Assembly: GCF_003589925.1 (NCBI RefSeq)
Contig: NZ_CP032382.1
Location: 62,001-126,000, forward strand
DNA length: 64,000 nt
Direction of reading: 5' to 3'
DNA from: Chryseolinea soli
Lineage (GTDB): Bacteria; Bacteroidota; Bacteroidia; Cytophagales; Cyclobacteriaceae
Shown here: piece after piece, positions 34,360-62,428 of the stretch
Layout: each line of letters opens with the position of its first letter
Position numbering within the stretch: position 1 is the stretch's first letter
Made by a program: the position numbers and the translations under genes
The notes under the pieces: generated by a model
The model's input: the letters and a program-made list of their open reading frames with translations, nothing else
The model's database searches: none
Told to the model about the DNA's origin: nothing

Positions 34360-34512
34360 TTTGAATATTTTTTTTTGGAGTCAAATAAAAAAAGAGGGGA
34401 ATAGCTTCAAGTTCGACTGTTTAAACAAAATGCGGTACAGCATCGCATTCGATCGAATATGTTGAAATTTATGCAATTCTGCAAGGAGAGTTTGAGGGGC
34501 GGTTCCCTCGTC

Positions 34513-34823
34513 GTTGCTGGTGATCTCAACCACAACATTTCCGGCGACGTCTCGCCGTTGTTGGTGTTCTTCACCAACAACACTTCCGGCGATGTCTCGC
34601 CGTTGTTGGTGTTCTTCACTAACAACACTTCCGGCGATGTCTCGCCGTTGCTGGTGTTCTTCACCAACAACACTTCCGGCGATGTCTCGCCGTTGTTGGT
34701 GTTCTTCACCAACAACGTTTCCGGCGACGTGCCCTATTTATGTCTGTCCTTACTGACGTTTGGCCAACAATAATACATTCCCTCGCATCACTTGTTGGTG
34801 AAGAACACCAACAAGGGCGGCGG
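34513..34823. repeat. Dispersed hairpin element copy A with 45-bp tandem array
   Basis: Five units start at 34513, 34557, 34602, 34647 and 34692; the first is degenerate and 44 bases, the next three are 45 bases, and the last is the left end of the full element. Each unit holds the hairpin GTTGTTGGTG-TTCTT-CACCAACAAC, perfect at 34557-34581 and 34692-34716, with one mismatch in the other two. The element closes at 34792-34814 with the same palindrome in opposite orientation (loop AAGAA) and then GGGCGGCGGG. Both strands stay open because the unit is a multiple of three, which creates false 15-residue repeat ORFs. It lies between the esterase and sigma genes. Confidence 0.9.
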
Positions 34824-34868
34824 GCGAGCCGCATAAATCAATGTGCGTTATCACACACAACACAGTGC

Positions 34869-34899
34869 TTGAAATTGATATTAATTTAACTTAAACTTG
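34869..34899 (+). promoter_or_regulatory. Candidate promoter of the FecI-type sigma gene
   Basis: TTG at 34869-34871 and TAAACTTG at 34892-34899 are 20 bases apart, close to Bacteroidota -33/-7 spacing, with one mismatch in the -7 box. It lies 18 bases before the ATG at 34918. Confidence 0.4.
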
Positions 34900-34917
34900 T
34901 TATGAAAGCTTCTTAAC

Positions 34918-35496
34918 ATGAAAACTGTCCACCACGGTGATGAAGAACTCCTGAAACGATTGCACCTGGGCGATAGTGAGGCTTTTGAAGAAATTTTCTC
35001 ACGCTTCTGGGAGCGCCTTTATCACGTCGCGCGGGCCCGGATAAATTCAGAAGAAGAGGCCGAAGAAATTGTTCAGGACATTTTTGCAAGCCTTTGGAAG
35101 AATCATCGAACGGTGTTGATCGCGGATTTGCCCAGCTATCTTTTTGCTGCCGTCCGCCGGGGTGTGATCAGCAAGATCCGCACCCGGCTGGTTCATCAGA
35201 AATACCAGGAATACTATCTGAAATTCTTTCCGTGCTATTCCAGGACCACCGAAGAAGCCCTTGATTTTGAGGAACTGAGTCTTGTCATTGAAAATGCCCT
35301 CCAGCAGTTGCCGGAGAAGTCACAACAGGTATTCCGGCTTAATCGCCTCCTCGGCCGCTCCATTGCCGAGATCGCCGAAACTTTGAAAATGCCCCGCAGA
35401 ACCATCGAGCATCATCTTACCCTTTCCATCCGGGAACTTCGCCTGCGTTTAAAGGACTATATGCCGCTTCTCGTCATGAGCCTGCTCCTGCAGTAG
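34918..35496 (+). CDS. FecI-type ECF sigma factor
   Basis: 192 residues, MKTVHHGDEELLKRLHLGD onward. Region 2 has 'AFEEIFSRFWERLYHVAR' and 'EEAEEIVQDIFASLWKN', and region 4 'LPEKSQQVFRLNRLLGRSIAEIAETLKMPRRTIEHHLTLSIRELR' in parts. It is of the Bacteroidota FecI/SigW group that pairs with FecR and a SusC carrying an STN domain. The FecR gene follows ~115 bases later. It should transcribe the susC-susD genes when the receptor signals ligand. Confidence 0.94.
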   Translation: MKTVHHGDEELLKRLHLGDSEAFEEIFSRFWERLYHVARARINSEEEAEEIVQDIFASLWKNHRTVLIADLPSYLFAAVRRGVISKIRTRLVHQKYQEYYLKFFPCYSRTTEEALDFEELSLVIENALQQLPEKSQQVFRLNRLLGRSIAEIAETLKMPRRTIEHHLTLSIRELRLRLKDYMPLLVMSLLLQ

Positions 35497-35612
35497 ATGT
35501 CATTTTCGGCCGCTCCGATTCGCGAGCAAAAAATAATTTCAAAAAACTTCCAAATTCTTTGCGGAAAAACCGGGGCAACGCGTCTTTGTATTGACCTAAA
35601 TCATACGAACCC

Positions 35613-36596
35613 ATGTCGCCTCAGGAAATTGACAAGATCCTACAACGTTATCTGAACTATGAATCCACGCCAGAGGAGCAGCAACTGGTGGAGCGCTGGT
35701 TCGATGCCATAGGAGAAGAAAAAACAGAGCTTGAACCCGCCACCCGGGAGGCCATCCAAAAAAGACTCTGGTCGTCCCTCAATGTTGAGAAGTCAAAGCG
35801 GCAAGGTTATACTAAATATGTCCGCGTGGCGGCTTCGATCGTCTTGTTAGCCGTTAGTACATTTTACCTCTACCGATATTTCACCCCTAACCTTCCTCAC
35901 GAGCAAACGATGGCGGATGCCAACGCACCTGTCGTCGTCACCTCTGGCGACCTCGAGAAACGAGTGGAACTAAGCGATGGCAGCGTGGTGACATTAAAGC
36001 CGCGCAGTGAGCTCCGTTTCCCATCTGTGTTTGGGACCCAGCGGGAGGTGAATCTCTCCGGGGAGGCCCTCTTTGAAGTGGCGCGGAATGTGCAACGTCC
36101 TTTTTTAGTGCACGCCAATGAAGTGACCACCCGAGTGCTGGGCACGAGCTTCCTCATCAAAGCCTACGCGCTGGAACAAGACATCACCGTGACGGTGAAG
36201 ACCGGGAAGGTTTCCGTCTACACGGAACATGCCAGCAACAAAACCGACCAGCGGCAGGAGATCATCCTCACGCCAAATCAACAGATCGTTTATCATAGGA
36301 ATGAAGATCAGACCGTAAAAATGCTGGTGAGCGATCCCCAGGTGATCACACCGCAATCTTCACAGCGAACGAGCTACACCAACGTACCCGTGCCGGAGAT
36401 CTTTCACGCGCTGGAGGAACGGTATGGCATTCCCATTCAATTTGATCCGAAGGTGTTGTCAGGTTGCACGATCACCTATGCCGATCTGACGGAAGAAGGA
36501 TTGTATGAACAAATCGAGATCATCTGTAACGCGCTTGGCGCGCGATATGAAAAGTCAGCGTCTTCCATTGTCATTGAGGCGGAAGGCTGTAAATGA
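35613..36596 (+). CDS. FecR-family anti-sigma/signal-transducing protein
   Basis: 327 residues. A cytoplasmic N-terminus (MSPQEIDKILQRYLNYESTPEE) is followed by a transmembrane helix near 70-88 ('VRVAASIVLLAVSTFYLY'). The FecR periplasmic domain lies at ~115-215 ('LSDGSVVTLKPRSELRFP', 'VNLSGEALFEVARNVQRPFLVHANEVTTRVLGTSF'). The C-terminal ~75 residues are the DUF4974/STN-like domain ('VPVPEIFHALEERYGIPIQFDP'). It binds the sigma factor and passes the signal from the SusC STN domain. Confidence 0.95.
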   Translation: MSPQEIDKILQRYLNYESTPEEQQLVERWFDAIGEEKTELEPATREAIQKRLWSSLNVEKSKRQGYTKYVRVAASIVLLAVSTFYLYRYFTPNLPHEQTMADANAPVVVTSGDLEKRVELSDGSVVTLKPRSELRFPSVFGTQREVNLSGEALFEVARNVQRPFLVHANEVTTRVLGTSFLIKAYALEQDITVTVKTGKVSVYTEHASNKTDQRQEIILTPNQQIVYHRNEDQTVKMLVSDPQVITPQSSQRTSYTNVPVPEIFHALEERYGIPIQFDPKVLSGCTITYADLTEEGLYEQIEIICNALGARYEKSASSIVIEAEGCK

Positions 36597-36692
36597 AATG
36601 ATGAACCTAAACCAAGAATCGCCTATGAAGTAAGACCCTTACAAAAAAAATGAGGCCGACGGTGTTACGAGCACCATCAGCCCTTTCCTGCG

Positions 36693-36710
36693 CCGGGATC
36701 GGAATCCCGG
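36693..36710. other. Hairpin in the susC leader
   Basis: CCGGGAT/ATCCCGG arms enclose CGGA, about 45 bases before the susC ATG. It may be a leader structure for translation control or partial attenuation between fecR and susC; no T-run follows directly. Confidence 0.4.
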
Positions 36711-36755
36711 AACAGCTTTGTCTTTGCCCTTTTACAAACAAAAACATCCCAATTT

Positions 36756-39700
36756 ATGAATAAACCTAAACCTATTCAACATGGATTGCTTTTTCTTATG
36801 AAAGTAACAATGTTCTCCATATTGATCTCATCCTTTTCCCTCGCTATGGCCACGGCCCATACCAGCGCAGGTCAGGAGACGCTGGAGCGCAAAGTGACGA
36901 TTGATGTGAAGAACTCCGAGTTTCAAGACGTGCTCGTATACCTGGCGAAACAGGCAAGAGTCAAATTTGTCTACAGTCCCCAGATCGTTAAGAAAGAGAA
37001 AAAGGTCACGCTGGCTCTCAACGAAGTGTCGCTGGCCGACGCGCTGTCGGCCTTGTTGGGCGGCAGCTATCGCTATCGCGTGATCGGCAAACAGATTGTT
37101 TTAGTTCCGCATCCGCCCGCCAGTGCTGAAGAAGAGGATGCTACGAAAAAATTTGCTTATGCCTTCAAGGTCTCCGGTGTGGTCACGGATGGTGTCGGCG
37201 CAGTGTTGCCCGGCGTAAACGTCATGATCAAGGGAACCACGGTGGGAACAACGACCGATTCGAAAGGCGCTTACAACATTGACGCCATCAGCGGCGATGC
37301 GACCCTGGTCTTTTCTTTTATTGGATTTGCTACCCGGGAAGTACCCGTCAACAATCAAAGTACACTCGATGTCATCCTGAGCGAAGATACCCAATCATTG
37401 AATGAAGTTGTGGTCACCGCCTTGGGTCTCACGCGCGACAAGGCAGCGCTGCCTTATGCCGTTACGGAAGTGCCCGGCGAGAACCTGACGAAAGCCAGGG
37501 AAAACAACCTCGGTAGCGCACTGTCGGGTCGTATTGCCGGTGTGAATGCGACGAGCACGGCTACAGGCCCCGGCGGTTCAAGCCGTGTCATCATCCGCGG
37601 CAATGGTTCGCTTGGGGGAAACAACCAGCCGCTCTATGTGGTCAATGGCATTCCCATTAACAACACTACTTACAGCACCGTCAGCACCTATGGCGGAACC
37701 GACAAAGGCGATGGACTGAACAGCATCAACCCCGACGACATCGCATCGATCTCGGTGTTGAAAGGAGGAACGGCCGCAGCCCTGTATGGTTCGCGCGCAG
37801 CAAACGGTGTGATCATCATCACCACCAAGTCGGGCAAAGCACAGGAAGGTATCGGCGTTGACTTCAGCTCTACCTACACGATGGAGAGTCCGCTCAAAGC
37901 CACCGACTGGCAGTATGCCTATGGCTCGGGCTCGCGTGGACTAAAGCCCACATCGCAAGCCGACGCCATTGCCAATGGAAGAATGTCGTGGGGTGCACCG
38001 ATGGACGGCACCTCGGTGATCCAGCCCGATGGTGTTTCGCGTCCCTATTCACCTCAAAAAAATAACATCAAGAATTTCTATGATGTGGGAAGCACCTTCT
38101 CCAACACGCTTGCGCTGAGCGGAGGAACAGAAGCCGCCAGCTTCAGGTTCTCGGCAGCCAACATGGACAACAAGGGGATCATCCCGAATTCCACCCTCAA
38201 CCGAAAAACATTCAACCTGAGCGTCAACTCCACGCTTGCCAAGAAGGTTGTGCTTCAAGCCAATGTGCAGTACAGCATCGAGCTCAACAAAAACCGCACG
38301 TCGATTTCCGATTTCACCAGCAACCCGAATGCCTCTGTTGGGGTGATGGCCACGAGCCTGGATGTGCGCACGTTGGCCCCGGGCTATGATGCCGATGGCT
38401 ATGAGACGCCGTGGAACGATTATGTGTTCGTGACCAATCCGTATTTCGCCGTCACCAAAGTAAAAAATCAAGACCAACGTCACCGGCTGATCTCGTCCTT
38501 TAGCACGCGCTATAATATCACCGACTGGTTGTATGTGCGCGGCCGGTTGGGAATTGATTACTACAACATCGACGGCTATAGCGTCAACCCAACGGGCTTG
38601 CTCTGGAACCCGAAAGGCGATTATGAAACCACGCAGAACCAGGCATCCGAAACCAATGCCGAAGTGTTGATGGGCTTCGACAAAACCTTTGGCAAGTTCT
38701 CGGTCACAGCGCTGGCCGGCGGAAATAAAATGCACAACGAGGTATCGTCCGGTGGACTGGAGAGTGGCCAGCTGATCGTTCCGTTCAAATATTTCATCGG
38801 CAACGGAAGCAACCAGGTGTTCAAAACACCCGTGTTCAAAGAGTCGGCGATCAACTCCATCTTCGCGTCCGTCGACATCGGGTTCAACCATTACCTCTAC
38901 CTCAGTCTCACCGGCCGCAAAGATTGGTTCTCTACTTTGTCGATGGCCAACAACAGCAAGTTCTATCCTTCGGCCGGACTTAGCTTTGTGTTCTCCGACG
39001 CCTGGACCACCAAGCCCGGCTGGTTGTCGTTGGGAAAAGTACGTGCATCGCTCGCGCAAGTGGGTGGCGGCGCGCCCGATCCCTATGGACTGGGGTTGAG
39101 CTATACGGCGCAATCGGTGAACCACCTCGGTCAGCCGTTGATGGCCATCACCGGGACCACGATCCCGAACAAAGACCTCAAGCCTTACACCTCCACCACG
39201 GCGGAAGCGGGTATCGAGACGCGGATGTTCAATAACCGCGTAGGCGTAGACCTCACCTTCTACAGAAGAACAACGACCAACGATATCGTGAATGCTTCGG
39301 TGGCTACCTCATCCAGTTATGAGAGCGTGTTACTCAACGTGGGCGAAATGCGCAACCAGGGAATTGAATTGTTGCTGACCGGCACACCCGTGACGCTTTC
39401 CAACGGGTTCACCTGGGATGTGAGCTTTAACATGGCCTACAACAACAACAAGGTCATCAAGATCGCCGACGGTCTCACCAGCCTGGCCATTCCCGGAGCG
39501 ATTCCCCGCACAGAGAATGCCTATATCTACCACTACGAAGGACAGTCGTTCGGCATGATCGCCGGCAACAAAATGATGCGCGATGCCCAGGGCAACATTG
39601 TTTATAACAATGCCAACGGCATTCCCCTGCAAAGTGACATCACACCCCTCGGCCGCGGCGTGCCGCCCCTCACCATGGGGTTGAACAACAGCGTGAGCTA

Positions 39701-40184
39701 TAAGAATTTCAATCTGAGTTTCCTCTTCGACGGCAAGTTTGGTTCGAAGATCTATTCTTCAGCGAATGCCTACGGTGCATACTTTGGTTTATCAAAGGTC
39801 ACGGCAGATAATCACATCCGTGAAAACGGAGTTGCTGTACATGGTGTAGATCAGAACGGAGCGGAATATGATGCCGTCGTTCCTGCACAGGAATATTACC
39901 AGGGCATTGCTTACTCGATCACGGATCAGTTTGTCTATGATGCCAGCTTTATCAAGCTGCGTCAGCTCACATTCGGTTACTCCGTGCCCCGTCCGTTGCT
40001 CGCGAAGACACCTTTCCAGGCGCTGAGCTTATCGTTTGTGGCGCGGAATCTCCTGTTGATCTACAGCAATGTGCCGAACATCGATCCGGAGTCCAACTAC
40101 AGCAACGGCAACGGACAAGGCCTCGAAAACTTCGGGATACCGACCACCCGGAGCTATGGTTTCAATCTATCGGTAAGATTCTAG
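36756..40184 (+). CDS. SusC/RagA-family TonB-linked outer-membrane protein with STN domain
   Basis: 1142 residues. After the signal peptide (to ~35) comes an STN signalling domain (~45-115, 'VTIDVKNSEFQDVLVYLAKQARVKFVYS'). A carboxypeptidase-regulatory-like domain follows (~135-215, 'GVVTDGVGAVLPGVNVMIKGT'), then the plug (~220-340, 'GSALSGRIAGVNATST', 'ISVLKGGTAAALYGSRAANGVIIITTKSG') and a large barrel to 'FNLSVRF'. The SusC signatures are unmistakable. It imports a glycan or peptide with the SusD partner that follows and signals to FecR through the STN domain. No glycosidase is linked downstream, so the substrate is unknown. Confidence 0.97.
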   Translation: MNKPKPIQHGLLFLMKVTMFSILISSFSLAMATAHTSAGQETLERKVTIDVKNSEFQDVLVYLAKQARVKFVYSPQIVKKEKKVTLALNEVSLADALSALLGGSYRYRVIGKQIVLVPHPPASAEEEDATKKFAYAFKVSGVVTDGVGAVLPGVNVMIKGTTVGTTTDSKGAYNIDAISGDATLVFSFIGFATREVPVNNQSTLDVILSEDTQSLNEVVVTALGLTRDKAALPYAVTEVPGENLTKARENNLGSALSGRIAGVNATSTATGPGGSSRVIIRGNGSLGGNNQPLYVVNGIPINNTTYSTVSTYGGTDKGDGLNSINPDDIASISVLKGGTAAALYGSRAANGVIIITTKSGKAQEGIGVDFSSTYTMESPLKATDWQYAYGSGSRGLKPTSQADAIANGRMSWGAPMDGTSVIQPDGVSRPYSPQKNNIKNFYDVGSTFSNTLALSGGTEAASFRFSAANMDNKGIIPNSTLNRKTFNLSVNSTLAKKVVLQANVQYSIELNKNRTSISDFTSNPNASVGVMATSLDVRTLAPGYDADGYETPWNDYVFVTNPYFAVTKVKNQDQRHRLISSFSTRYNITDWLYVRGRLGIDYYNIDGYSVNPTGLLWNPKGDYETTQNQASETNAEVLMGFDKTFGKFSVTALAGGNKMHNEVSSGGLESGQLIVPFKYFIGNGSNQVFKTPVFKESAINSIFASVDIGFNHYLYLSLTGRKDWFSTLSMANNSKFYPSAGLSFVFSDAWTTKPGWLSLGKVRASLAQVGGGAPDPYGLGLSYTAQSVNHLGQPLMAITGTTIPNKDLKPYTSTTAEAGIETRMFNNRVGVDLTFYRRTTTNDIVNASVATSSSYESVLLNVGEMRNQGIELLLTGTPVTLSNGFTWDVSFNMAYNNNKVIKIADGLTSLAIPGAIPRTENAYIYHYEGQSFGMIAGNKMMRDAQGNIVYNNANGIPLQSDITPLGRGVPPLTMGLNNSVSYKNFNLSFLFDGKFGSKIYSSANAYGAYFGLSKVTADNHIRENGVAVHGVDQNGAEYDAVVPAQEYYQGIAYSITDQFVYDASFIKLRQLTFGYSVPRPLLAKTPFQALSLSFVARNLLLIYSNVPNIDPESNYSNGNGQGLENFGIPTTRSYGFNLSVRF

Positions 40185-40220
40185 CGTATGGAAGTAACCA
40201 CCTTAATCAGAGAACGAATC

Positions 40221-41813
40221 ATGAAGACTATAAAACAGAAATTAACCCGACTGATCCTCCAAGGCAGCTTGATCATGATCTTACTGGCCTCCGCTTGCGA
40301 CAGCGGCTTTGAAGAAATGAACCAGAATCCCAACGCGTTTACGGAGCCTGTGATCGGCAGCTTGTTTTCTTACAACCTCATCCGCACCGCCGGTTCCAGC
40401 GACGACAACACGTTATACCCGAACGACAAACTCGCAGGAGCCATGATGCAGATCTTTGCTTCGCTGAATCCGTACCAATGGACCGGCGACAAGTACCTGA
40501 AAAAAGCAGGCTATACCGACGGCCTTTTCAACGCGGTGTTCGGCGTCGAGCTGAAGGAGAACGTACAGATCCTGACGCTCACGAAAGACGATCCGGAAAT
40601 GGTGAACTACTACAACATCGCTCGCATCTGGCATGTCTACATCATGCACCGGGCAACCGACATGTATGGCGACGTTCCGTATTTTGAAGCGGGCCAAGGC
40701 TACACCGAAGGCAACTACAAGCCAAAGTTCGACAAACAGGAAGACATCTATGCCGACATGTTGAAGGAACTCGACGAAGCGGCGAAGAACCTTAATCCTT
40801 CGAAGCCATCTTTCGGATCGGCCGACTATCTCTACAGCGGCGACGTGGGCAAATGGAAGACCTTCGCCTATTCCATGATGCTGCGCCTCGGCCTTCGTCT
40901 CACCAAAGTTGATCTTGCCTTGTCCGAAACCTGGGTGAAGAAAGCGATCGCCGGCGGCGTCATGCAAAGCAACGCCGACATTGCCCGGTTGAATCACTCC
41001 AGCGGCGGCGAACTGAACTACTATTGGGATGGGCGCGAGCTCCAGGGCGGCGAAGGCGTGCCTCCTTCGGAAGAAGGCCGGGGCTATGGCAAGATGGCGC
41101 AAACTTTTGTGTCGCACTTGAAAAATACAGCAGACCCCAGGCTTCCGTTCTACATCACCCTCTGGCCCGGCAATGCTGATCCTTCCCTGCTTCCGACCAG
41201 CACCAATCCTGCAGATCAAAAAGGACTGCCCTCCGGCTACGACGCCTCGTCCATTAAATCCATCATCCCCGACTGGACAGACGACTCTTATGCCGAATAC
41301 TCCGAGATCAATTTGCATACGGTAGCCCACGACGCCACGCCAAGCATTTTCCTCAGCTACAACGAAGTGAAACTATACCTGGCCGAAGCCGCACTCCGCG
41401 GCTGGGACAGCGGCGATCCCAAGACGTACTATGAAGAAGCCGTTAACGCGTCGATGAAGATGGGACCGCTTTATCCCGGATCGTTTAGTATTCCACAGGC
41501 CGCCATCGATCAATACCTCGCCGACAACCCGTACACCGGCGGCACTTTCGAAGCGCAAATGGAACAGATCCACACGCAATTCTGGGTATCCCAATTCATG
41601 AACAACATGGAGATCTTTGCCAACTGGAGACGCACGGGCTATCCCAAGCTGACCCCGACAAATTATCCAGGCAACGAAACCGGCGGAACCATCCCGCGCC
41701 GCATCCCCTACCCTCAATCGGAAGCCAGCATCAACACAGAAAACTACAAAGCCGCCATCGACTCTCAAGGCCCGGATCTATGGACCACCCGGATCTGGTG
41801 GGATAAGGAATAG
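40221..41813 (+). CDS. SusD/RagB-family surface lipoprotein
   Basis: 530 residues from ATG 40221; an upstream ATG (40188) would add 11 residues. Lipobox 'LLASAC' (Cys26). The start 'CDSGFEEMNQNPNAFTEP' is typical. Helical TPR-like SusD features include 'YYNIARIWHVYIMHRATDMYGDVPYFEA', 'DIYADMLKELDEAAKNL', 'LYSGDVGKWKTFAYSMMLRLGLRL' and the C-terminal 'YNEVKLYLAEAALRGW'. It binds ligand on the cell surface and caps SusC. It follows SusC directly and ends at a terminator. Confidence 0.96.
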   Translation: MKTIKQKLTRLILQGSLIMILLASACDSGFEEMNQNPNAFTEPVIGSLFSYNLIRTAGSSDDNTLYPNDKLAGAMMQIFASLNPYQWTGDKYLKKAGYTDGLFNAVFGVELKENVQILTLTKDDPEMVNYYNIARIWHVYIMHRATDMYGDVPYFEAGQGYTEGNYKPKFDKQEDIYADMLKELDEAAKNLNPSKPSFGSADYLYSGDVGKWKTFAYSMMLRLGLRLTKVDLALSETWVKKAIAGGVMQSNADIARLNHSSGGELNYYWDGRELQGGEGVPPSEEGRGYGKMAQTFVSHLKNTADPRLPFYITLWPGNADPSLLPTSTNPADQKGLPSGYDASSIKSIIPDWTDDSYAEYSEINLHTVAHDATPSIFLSYNEVKLYLAEAALRGWDSGDPKTYYEEAVNASMKMGPLYPGSFSIPQAAIDQYLADNPYTGGTFEAQMEQIHTQFWVSQFMNNMEIFANWRRTGYPKLTPTNYPGNETGGTIPRRIPYPQSEASINTENYKAAIDSQGPDLWTTRIWWDKE

Positions 41814-41844
41814 CAGGAGCCTCTCTTGCAGTTTAGGGTGAACT

Positions 41845-41884
41845 GCCCGCCCGATCGATATATCGGAGCGGGCGGTTTTTTTTG
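41845..41884 (+). terminator. Intrinsic terminator of the susCD operon
   Basis: GCCCGC-CCGAT…ATCGG-A-GCGGGC stem (arms 41845-41850 and 41868-41873, extended by inner pairs) followed by GG and eight T. It lies ~30 bases after the susD stop. Confidence 0.9.
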
Positions 41885-41903
41885 TTGATTATGGGAAGCC
41901 GCC

Positions 41904-42027
41904 GTTGTTGGTGTTCTTCACCAACAACATTTCCGGCGATGTCATTTATTTTATGCCTGCCCTTGCTGGCTTCTTTCTACAAACCATGCGCTCCCTCGCG
42001 TCGCTTGTTGGTGAAGAACACCAACAA
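41904..42027. repeat. Dispersed hairpin element copy B
   Basis: The left palindrome GTTGTTGGTG-TTCTT-CACCAACAAC lies at 41904-41928 and the right palindrome (loop AAGAA) at 42005-42027. The interior shares 'TTTCCGGCGATGTC', 'TTATGCCTGCCCTTGCTGGC' and 'CTCCCTCGCGTCGC' blocks with copies A and C. Total length 124 bases. It sits between the susD terminator and the end of the cupin gene. Confidence 0.92.
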
Positions 42028-42042
42028 GGGCTAAGGATAAGA

Positions 42043-42618
42043 TCACGGCTTATCCCTATAAACCATCCCATATTTCTTCTCCGTCAACGCATACGCTTCG
42101 TCACTTCTTTCTTTGGCCGGCATTCCGGCCGGCGTGCCATTCTCTATAAAATATTCTTCAAATCCCGCGGGTGAATATTGAAAAACCATGCGCAGGTTTT
42201 CTGTGCCGGTGTTGTCAAGGCCATGCCAGATACCTCTGGGAACAAATACAACATCTCCGGTCTTTACGGCAATGGTCTCTTCATCCAATGTCAGCGTGCC
42301 CTCTCCTTTGTGGATAAAAATAAGTTCATCATTATTCAGATGTTTATGAACACGCATCTTGCGCCCGGGGTCCATGTCTTCAACGCAAAATGAAATACCC
42401 TCTATGCCTTGCTTCGCTTTGGATATTTTTATAGTGATCGGCACTTTGCGTCTCGTTAAAATATGGGTTCCTTCGTCTTCCCGTACGACAATACCTTTGT
42501 CGCCACTGGACGTTGGCCTTGCAAAACTGAGTTTTGGGAGCTGGGCAAAGAAAGCAGTACAAAATCCTACTACTCCTACCCGGAGAAATTTTCGACGAGG
42601 TTGTTGGATGTGGTTCAT
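42043..42618 (-). CDS. Cupin-domain protein with Tat-like signal
   Basis: 191 residues. The N-terminus 'QQPRRKFLRVGVVGFCTAFFA' (in parts) has a twin-Arg and hydrophobic core, suggesting Tat export. The cupin core has 'HKHLNNDELIFIHKGEG' (His91, His93, Glu98) and 'PRGIWHGLDNTG' (His132), the full 3-His-1-Glu metal set. It could be a dioxygenase, isomerase or binding protein. The gene lies between element copies B and C. Export plus a metal cupin suggests folded-cofactor secretion through Tat. Substrate is unknown. Confidence 0.87.
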   Translation of the reverse strand: MNHIQQPRRKFLRVGVVGFCTAFFAQLPKLSFARPTSSGDKGIVVREDEGTHILTRRKVPITIKISKAKQGIEGISFCVEDMDPGRKMRVHKHLNNDELIFIHKGEGTLTLDEETIAVKTGDVVFVPRGIWHGLDNTGTENLRMVFQYSPAGFEEYFIENGTPAGMPAKERSDEAYALTEKKYGMVYRDKP

Positions 42619-42690
42619 GGTACGCTTGTTGAATAAACAAGGTAATCAATTATATCGGCAAGTTTACCGGCTCGCTTCTTCACCCACGCC

Positions 42691-42864
42691 GTTGTTGGCG
42701 TTCTCTTCATGCACCACATTGCTCCACGCCGTTGTTGGTGTTCTTCACCAACAACATTTTGGCGATGTCTCTCCAATTTATGTCTGCCCTTGTTGCGCCT
42801 CACCTATAAACAACGCATTCCCCCGCATCGCTTGTTGGTGAAGAACACCAACAAGGGCGGCGGG
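42691..42864. repeat. Dispersed hairpin element copy C with degenerate extra unit
   Basis: The left palindrome is at 42731-42755, the right at 42832-42854 and the GGGCGGCGGG tail at 42855-42864. The 124-base core matches copies A and B in layout and conserved blocks. A degenerate 40-base unit beginning GTTGTTGGCG at 42691 precedes it, echoing the tandem array of copy A. It is located between the cupin and methyltransferase genes. Confidence 0.9.
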
Positions 42865-60808: not shown

Positions 60809-62428
60809 ATGTCCCCCAAATCGCTAACGCAAGATGTGGAGTCAAGTTATTCGTCGCTGGAAGTTCTCAACCAGTTGAAACTGATCCTCTCTCATGAATT
60901 GTTCAACAATTCCGCGGTACTTTCCAATTTTTTAAAGTATATCGTTGAAGAAACGCTGGCCGGCAATCTCAAATCGCTAAAGGAATATACGATTGGCGTG
61001 AATGGCCTTGGCAAAAAGGCCGACTTCAATCCACAGATCGATGCCATCGTGCGCATCCACGCCGGTCGCTTACGGCGGCTGCTGGCGGAATACTATAATG
61101 GACCGGGCGCTCAGGACAGGATCTTGATCGAGGTGGTCAAAGGTTCCTACGTCCCGGTTTTCAGTCAGCGACATTCCAGGGAAGACTTACCCATGATCCT
61201 CTCGCCTTCCTTGAATGAGATCCGGCACATCACCCTTTCGAAAGTCTCTGTAGCGATCCTGCCTTTCCGCAATCTGTGCCCTACCAGCGATCACCAATAT
61301 TTCGCCGATGCACTGGGTGAAGAATTTACGCGCGTCTTTAGTGCGTCGCAGGAGTTTTCGGTGATCGGCCATCACTCCACCTTGAAACACGCGGAGCTGC
61401 ATACCGATCTGCATACCATCGGCTTAAAGCTTCATGCGCAATACATCATCACCGGTACGGTGATGAAAGACGAAAACCATTTTCGCATCACGGTCGGGTT
61501 GCTGGAGACCGATCTTCGGACACAGTTGTGGTCGAAAGTCTTTGAATATGAAACCAAAGTAGGATTCCTGCAGGTTCAGGATGAAACGATCCAGGATGTT
61601 TATACCGCGTTGGGTGGGCCGTTCGGTTTTATTGTCCGCCACAGTGCGCTCACATCAAAAACGATCTCCGAAGACTCCATCGCGTTCGATGCTGCGCTTT
61701 ACAATTATCAATTTCAAACCAACTTCTCTTTTTTCAGCTATGCCAAGACGCGCAAAGTATTGGAGGTCATCCTGCAAAGCAATCCCCAATTCCCGACAGC
61801 CCTCGGCATGCTGTCGGAGCTCTATCTCTGGGGTCACATGTTAGGATACCCCACGGTGGAAGACCCGGTCTCGACAAGCTTGCGCCTGGCACACAAAGCC
61901 CGGAATATTGACCCGCTCTCTAAGTACGCCTGCTTTTCTTTTTTATGGGCTTCCTTATATACGAAAGGGAACGAGAGCATTCAACACGAGATCGATCAAC
62001 TCCTGAATCAAAATCCTCCTGCCACCCTGGACGCCGCCAAGTTCGCCACGCTGTTGGTTTGGGGTGGTCATTACGACGGCGCCGAGACGTTATTGGAACA
62101 AGCGATCAGGCTTCACCCCCACTATCCGTGGAGTTTTGACCTGGCCTTGGGCCTGCTCTGCTTCAAGGATGGCCGCTATGCCGAAGCCCTGGAAATCATC
62201 GACCGGATCAGCGTCACCGACGTTTACCTGGTAGACTTGTTAGAGATCGTTTTGTTAACCAAATCCGGATCGCCCAAGGAAGCCAAATTTTATCTGAACA
62301 CCTTGGAAGAAAACTATTCTTTCATTGCCTCACACTTAAAAACATACCTCAGCAACTTCTTGCTCGACAAAGCCCTGGTCGACGAAATCCTCGAGGGCGT
62401 CCGCGAAGCCCACGAAGCTATCCGGTAG
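60809..62428 (+). CDS. Winged-helix/TolB-like/TPR regulator, no catalytic domain
   Basis: 539 residues, no signal peptide. The N-terminal ~100 residues ('LKLILSHELFNNSAVLSNFLKYIVEETLAG', 'DAIVRIHAGRLRRLLAEYY') form a winged-helix-like domain typical of proteins with C-terminal TPR arrays. Residues ~145-265 resemble a TolB-N-like nucleotide-cyclase-associated module ('VSVAILPFRNLCP', 'YFADALGEEFTRVFSAS'). The C-terminal ~240 residues are TPR-like helices ('AETLLEQAIRLHPHYPWSFDLALGLLCF', 'AEALEIIDRISVTDVYLV'). It probably binds DNA or a partner to regulate nearby genes. Confidence 0.82.
   Translation: MSPKSLTQDVESSYSSLEVLNQLKLILSHELFNNSAVLSNFLKYIVEETLAGNLKSLKEYTIGVNGLGKKADFNPQIDAIVRIHAGRLRRLLAEYYNGPGAQDRILIEVVKGSYVPVFSQRHSREDLPMILSPSLNEIRHITLSKVSVAILPFRNLCPTSDHQYFADALGEEFTRVFSASQEFSVIGHHSTLKHAELHTDLHTIGLKLHAQYIITGTVMKDENHFRITVGLLETDLRTQLWSKVFEYETKVGFLQVQDETIQDVYTALGGPFGFIVRHSALTSKTISEDSIAFDAALYNYQFQTNFSFFSYAKTRKVLEVILQSNPQFPTALGMLSELYLWGHMLGYPTVEDPVSTSLRLAHKARNIDPLSKYACFSFLWASLYTKGNESIQHEIDQLLNQNPPATLDAAKFATLLVWGGHYDGAETLLEQAIRLHPHYPWSFDLALGLLCFKDGRYAEALEIIDRISVTDVYLVDLLEIVLLTKSGSPKEAKFYLNTLEENYSFIASHLKTYLSNFLLDKALVDEILEGVREAHEAIR

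Follow-up and report, generated by a model that had tools for sequence, protein, structure and literature searches.

RAYT genes, which encode REP-associated tyrosine transposases, were originally defined by two flanking inverted repetitive extragenic palindromic (REP) sequences with a GT(A/G)G head, as reported in PMC2817692. REPINs are described in PMC3116915 as inverted REP doublets that fold as hairpins, with singlets regarded as remnants. Two REP tags, GTAG and CGTC, feature in the account given in PMC3733652, and the CGTC repeats, said there to be without a dedicated transposase, occur in Bacteroidetes too. In GTAG systems the tag helps recognition and, in one system, the choice of cut (PMC8266576). 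The survey in PMC6006769 describes a TnpA-Y1 subclass, 2.6 (Bertels group 5), that is mostly from Bacteroidetes, has a median length of 179 aa and is flanked by structures that are without GT[AG]G, fold more weakly and recur in the genome. Here we analysed a 64,000-nucleotide stretch of Chryseolinea soli DNA (the window; positions 62001–126000 of the single 8,241,389-base contig of this genome, G000), which carries three repeats, A, B and C. These are very probably REPINs of a REPIN/RAYT system whose cognate RAYT is the one RAYT-type gene in the C. soli genome.

The C. soli repeats resemble the REPIN/RAYT system of Pseudomonas fluorescens SBW25 as it is described in PMC3116915: inverted doublets that form long hairpins and are mostly extragenic, singlets and tandem clusters besides, and a RAYT flanked by the same REPs. 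In contrast to SBW25, the units described here have a CGCC foot instead of GT[AG]G, a stem of mixed composition with the apex GTTGGTG and a Bacteroidota host. REPIN/RAYT systems are already known as a kind, and it is the CGCC foot, in place of GTAG or CGTC, and a transposase clade of its own that set this variant apart.

A dispersed palindrome with a CGCC foot

A single 23-bp palindrome, TTGTTGGTGTTCTTCACCAACAA, is paired in inverted orientation in each of copies A, B and C, and the window holds nine matches to it (≤3 mismatches) compared with 0 in 100 shuffles. A preliminary description of this DNA had placed the cores at 34692–34814 (A), 41904–42027 (B) and 42731–42854 (C), all in the same direction, and had seen at each right end an inverted palindrome with the loop AAGAA. 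Direct reading and a repeat search gave the same cores, and the right end is the same palindrome read on the minus strand. The full units extend further than had been described, since the homology among A, B and C begins and stops at the foot CGCC immediately outside these cores. The sequences flanking the units differ; therefore, the three copies do not derive from one local duplication.

Genome-wide, the palindrome occurs 100 times (≤2 mismatches; 76 copies exact), with 50 copies per strand and 0 for a reversed-pattern control, so the family is not confined to the three copies. These 100 palindromes, all of which were examined, form 64 clusters (gap >2 kb), and 49 of them have another copy within 400 bp. 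When the palindromes were oriented by the loop TTCTT, the foot was exactly CGCC in 84 and GCC in 91 of the 100, and conservation fell further outward. Its third base was C in 96 and T in two, so the tag is not CGTC. The outermost stem pair was complementary in 91 of the 100 (47 C-G, 29 G-C and 15 T-A), whereas shuffling gave 37.8 on average and 55 at most. The foot stands one base ahead of the searched motif, and the search pattern included neither it nor the outermost stem pair.

Successive copies within 300 bp of each other were convergent in 14 cases, on the same strand in 14 and divergent in one. A spacing of 99 or 100 is seen in five convergent pairs, which are A, B, C and two pairs, at 6,609,115 and 6,610,952, that flank genes other than those at A, B and C. 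The five 124-bp copies of C. soli and the three of Chryseolinea serpens can be aligned from one foot to the other, where the alignment ends. Folded as single-stranded DNA, each doublet is predicted to form one long hairpin (z: A, –7.7; B, –8.2; C, –8.0), and a single unit a short one (z –6.1 and –5.3). Placement is strongly biased: 27 of the 100 palindromes lie inside an open reading frame (ORF) of ≥80 aa, compared with 88% of random places in the same stretches, and six inside an ORF of ≥300 aa. Among the 73 outside ORFs, 34 stand between converging, 38 between co-directional and one between diverging ORFs (gene-context counts use a greedy ORF prediction). Inverted REP doublets, folding as one hairpin, and dispersed extragenic copies in high number are the features of REPINs, and all are present here. 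A search of Rfam gave two matches, both far under their gathering scores, and no clean rule emerged when the ends of the REPINs were sorted by motif into two types.

A RAYT gene between convergent palindromes

The window holds no transposase, as had been noted before. A genome search with another RAYT located the RAYT-type gene at about 7,716,480–7,717,010 (frame 7,716,581–7,716,967, minus strand), standing between convergent copies of the palindrome at 7,716,414 (+) and 7,717,156 (–). Together with the 100 palindromes, whose opposed neighbours are mostly convergent, this gene with matching ends bears out the REPIN/RAYT interpretation that the preliminary description had offered. At the same place, C. 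serpens DSM 24574 (G002; NZ_FQWQ01000002.1) encodes an intact protein of 176 aa, here called RAYT-B, with one palindrome copy to its left and four to its right. Each of the two genomes has a single RAYT-B, and a profile of 24 relatives matches this locus alone in C. soli.

In the NCBIfam family REP_Tyr_transpos (NF047646; cut-off 80), C. serpens RAYT-B (L188) scored 90.4 bits and the related L211 and L213 scored 81.8 and 85.8 bits. There was no Pfam match for C. serpens RAYT-B at 0.001, and the relative L213 passes Pfam Y1_Tnp (26.3 versus a cut-off of 23). The IS200-type NCBIfam model NF033573 listed neither L188 nor L211 and scored L213 at 19.7 bits (cut-off 55), which places none of the three in that family. 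A sequence search of the PDB with C. serpens RAYT-B returned TnpA-REP (4er8) as the sole match up to E 1. The predicted structure (mean predicted local distance difference test score, pLDDT, 92.5) had 4er8 as its best fold match (E 1.8e-9; template modelling (TM) scores 0.64/0.67), followed by IS200-type transposases. H60, H62 and Y136, i.e. the HUH pair and the catalytic-type tyrosine motif, are invariant in 12 and in 24 relatives. The likeness to the E. coli REP and bacterial interspersed mosaic element (BIME) system with TnpA-REP, as described in PMC8266576, covers the predicted fold, the HUH pair, the tyrosine motif and a hairpin with a 5′ tetranucleotide foot, whereas identity in the fold match is 19% and the units here have a CGCC foot and no stem bulge.

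Other candidates for the cognate enzyme were considered and set aside. Two C. soli loci with Pfam Y1_Tnp matches, L087 and L088, have no copy of the palindrome in their stretches. A second RAYT type, RAYT-A (183 aa; C. serpens contig C7), has the palindrome core at just two of the 16 intact loci examined (L176, ~1.3 kb off on both sides, and L203, ~650 bp off). On a tree, 72 RAYT-B and 14 RAYT-A rows split with 100% support in the Shimodaira–Hasegawa approximate likelihood-ratio test (SH-aLRT). As a separate observation, the second Y1 transposase locus (L088:5110-6040) is frame-split and has three copies of a different palindrome, CCCCAGGCT[TT/AA]AGCCTGGGG, next to it, perhaps a second REP-like family.

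RAYT-B relatives were examined in two sets. In the first, the 12 best-scoring loci of a genome search (L205–L216, including C. soli and C. serpens), the palindrome was found on both sides in nine, on one side in two and on neither in one; one of the two one-sided cases has a changed stem, and the locus without the palindrome in this form is L210 of Chryseolinea sp. H1M3-3 (G003). Lower-scoring relatives in this search (L217–L224) have hairpins with other stems. The second set was the best 80 of 284 loci from genome records. Matching hairpins faced each other within 450 bp at 39 of the 80 loci, compared with 0 of 178 displaced window pairs. When a GCC tag and a stem of 8 were required, 33 of the 80 loci had hairpins on both sides, 15 had them on one side only and 32 had none; in the 178 controls, none had both and eight had one. 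By motif, 138 palindromes were counted in the flanks of 51 of the 80 loci, and the count in 416 displaced windows was 26, each palindrome being countable on both strands. Judged by loop direction, 115 of the 138 face inward (GCC in 96, CGCC in 64) and 23 outward (GCC in 11, CGCC in three).

The two sides carry the same loop in 32 of the 39 loci with facing hairpins. Loop length (4 or 5) follows the RAYT tree, needing eight changes where 300 shuffles needed 15.7 on average and never fewer than 10, a result that near-copies favour. This tree contains 72 stop-free rows, 46 of them labelled, and eight of the 80 rows were left out as they have stops. Source labels of the 80 loci are nearly all Bacteroidota, including Ohtaekwangia, Flavisolibacter, Ferruginibacter, Mucilaginibacter and Roseivirga; the others are Rickettsiales (L260) and Ignavibacteria (L307 and L309).

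We propose that each doublet consists of two REP units, inverted around a short spacer, and that a single-stranded unit would fold into a hairpin with a 5′ CGCC foot, a whole doublet giving one long hairpin. The RAYT whose gene lies between convergent unit copies, a TnpA-REP-type HUH tyrosine enzyme, would be the cognate transposase. Most likely, this enzyme binds the hairpin, uses the foot to select the adjoining cut and has, over time, spread copies of the doublets to other, mostly intergenic sites.

Distribution, possible movement and standing of the CGCC system

The motif GCCNNNNTTGGTGTTCTTCACCAA is present in 35 of 295 genomes of the family and, in a slightly stricter form, in four of 296 genomes drawn from the phylum; both figures count C. 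soli itself, and both reversed controls gave 0. Within the genus (≤2 mismatches), there are 100 copies in C. soli, 125 in C. serpens, nine in G004, three in G005 and 0 in G001 and in Chryseolinea sp. H1M3-3. The last of these encodes an intact RAYT-B (60% identity) and has 34 places of a related form that keeps the CGCC foot and the stem but has a longer loop, the foot being included in the pattern searched in this case. These related repeats form arrays (L241:3533-3863; C7:217485-219489, also on C12 and C19), one of which starts ~130 bp from the RAYT gene and accounts for many of the 34 places. G001 retains a RAYT-B remnant of 38 residues, and G004 has weak RAYT-B matches only, the best one with three stops. 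The genus shows a species-level REP difference, with a 5-base loop in C. serpens and a longer loop in H1M3-3.

Empty sites were sought by setting 11 C. soli stretches against 18 that were picked by colinearity on C. serpens contig C8; L034 was without a counterpart, and neither L035 nor L086 had a match that spanned the REP. Copies A, B and C occupy orthologous places in C. serpens, and the window copies are old. Differences at these sites are a 45-bp tandem array found in C. soli only, which precedes copy A and had gone unmentioned in the preliminary description, an extra unit left of B in C. serpens only, and divergence at C. At the other compared places, units were shared or differed by local extra units, e.g. 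at 571,102 in C. soli. Two RAYT-A genes of G028 (L133:1435-2900, L113:1080-1620) are disrupted by such hairpin units: one is interrupted, with its C-terminal portion on the far side of a second unit, and the other is truncated at a unit. No insertion event was caught in these comparisons. Mobility is suggested by the dispersal of the units, their sharp boundaries, the interrupted RAYT-A gene and the link to a transposase. A stretch of ~4.8 kb with a REP unit at one edge is present in C. serpens (G002:C8:211472-216267) and missing from C. soli (G000:C1:7893883-7893901).

Several observations weigh against assigning the repeats to a REPIN/RAYT system with this enzyme. The foot is not the 5′ GT[AG]G of canonical GTAG REPs. 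In C. soli, the RAYT frame (L084:3059-3607, about 7,716,458–7,717,006) is lost after the YIHLNP motif, and a DNA alignment matches the remainder in another frame; this loss, near the C-terminus, makes present activity of the transposase doubtful, and the enzyme may no longer be active. A matching hairpin pair is not shown by 41 of the 80 RAYT loci. REPs occur without a RAYT match (E 0.001) in four of 38 genomes searched (G147, G176, G223 and G310), and a further family genome, G184, has 53 REPs and no RAYT of >35% identity in its assembly, i.e. its REPs could be an orphan population, the gene could be unassembled, or another enzyme could serve. Lastly, the comparison of C. soli with C. serpens did not turn up a clean empty site for any complete doublet.

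An alternative is that the REP–RAYT–REP segment moves whole, as a transposon, with the doublets as its internal-deletion derivatives, comparable to miniature inverted-repeat transposable elements (MITEs) and their parent. Indeed, the RAYT gene stands between inverted ends ~630–760 bp apart in several genera, and some genomes are rich in RAYT-like matches (11 in G010 and 15 in G055, RAYT-A counted). This would imply a moving transposase gene, contrary to accounts of known REPtrons. However, the single, shared location of RAYT-B in C. soli and C. serpens argues against it. Nor could the doublet spacers be traced to the ends of the RAYT unit, since 11 of 20 doublets have the same end type on both sides. 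We therefore regard movement of the whole segment as unlikely. The placement at gene ends, almost always between converging or co-directional ORFs, would also suit hairpins kept for an RNA function (transcript end or message stability) and spread by recombination alone, the RAYT link being incidental. This is very improbable given the facing, matched hairpins around nearly half of the RAYT genes and their absence from the displaced controls; moreover, no terminator-like site was found on B or C, and a CGCC foot outside the hairpin would have no obvious RNA role. A host role for the hairpins is compatible with the REPIN/RAYT interpretation and would stand alongside it rather than replace it.

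It had also been suggested that recombination between the direct copies could delete or move the locus between them, and A, B and C might on this account form a cassette for the sus locus or the cupin gene. Same-orientation copies do lie on both sides of these genes, and elsewhere a REP-edged stretch of 4.8 kb differs between the two species. The idea is nevertheless hardly tenable, as all three copies and the locus are present at the same places in C. serpens, and REPs are dispersed genome-wide, so flanking copies are not special.

With the repeats taken as REPINs of a RAYT-B system, they can be set against the described classes. The GTAG and CGTC superfamilies (PMC3733652) likewise have a short palindrome with a fixed tetranucleotide tag at one end. 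In contrast to the CGTC repeats as described there, the Chryseolinea repeats have a dedicated transposase and a third foot base that is mostly C; the CGCC units may nevertheless be distantly related to them. Subclass 2.6 (PMC6006769) shares the Bacteroidetes hosts and flanking non-GT[AG]G structures repeated in the genome, but is described with the motifs WQ and YIH[QN]NP and weaker structure, whereas we find WE as well as WQ, several residues after YIH, and a strong 10-bp stem; compared by description, the fit is partial. Some of the CGCC class may be among the ‘atypical structures’ seen beside Bacteroidetes RAYTs in that survey. In the literature searched, we found no CGCC-tagged REP family with its own RAYT clade.

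These comparisons raise a broader reading, that the repeats represent a third tagged REP class with a (C)GCC foot, present across several Bacteroidota families and in Ignavibacteria-labelled records, with its own RAYT clade, a co-evolved loop preference and a foot that guides the cut at a site other than the CT/CA of GTAG systems. We consider the case for this evenly balanced, because CGTC repeats, one base from CGCC, have been reported from Bacteroidetes (PMC3733652). The experimental studies of REP-cutting enzymes that we found in the literature searched concern GTAG-footed systems. A CGCC system would allow a direct test of whether the cut is guided by the foot, as an altered foot should mean an altered cut site and altered reading residues. 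The CGCC motif is also concrete and searchable, whereas the survey in PMC6006769, as far as its account goes, names just atypical structures by Bacteroidetes RAYTs, and the host bacteria belong to a group in which REPIN-type elements have been little studied.

Copies A, B and C in the window

The coordinates of the repeat features are listed below.

REPIN copies and associated repeats, numbered by window position
Feature	Position	Strand	Details
REPIN copy A	34688–34819	+	foot CGCC; left hairpin 34692–34716; spacer; right hairpin 34791–34815 (minus strand); foot complement 34816–34819
REPIN copy B	41900–42032	+	left hairpin 41904–41928; right hairpin 42004–42028 (minus strand); right foot AGCC, not CGCC
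REPIN copy C	42727–42859	+	left hairpin 42731–42755; right hairpin 42831–42855 (minus strand); CGCC feet at both ends
Degenerate additional left unit ahead of copy C	42687–42719	+	70% identical (repeat search)
Tandem array at copy A	34507–34727	+	period 45, 4.9 copies; left REP of A and the next 20 bases

Copy B sits between converging SusD-like and cupin-like ORFs, and copy C between two minus-strand ORFs (gene names in the window were assigned by eye and from the preliminary description). In the other four genomes of the genus that were searched, there was no SusD match of >45% identity. Copy A is in an unusual place, because it is flanked by two diverging ORFs once the ORFs formed by the 45-bp repeat are disregarded. 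This array is open on both strands (34407–34773), and the two resulting ORFs (102 and 104 aa), which contain 15-residue repeats, are likely spurious, although an annotation pipeline could call them as genes.

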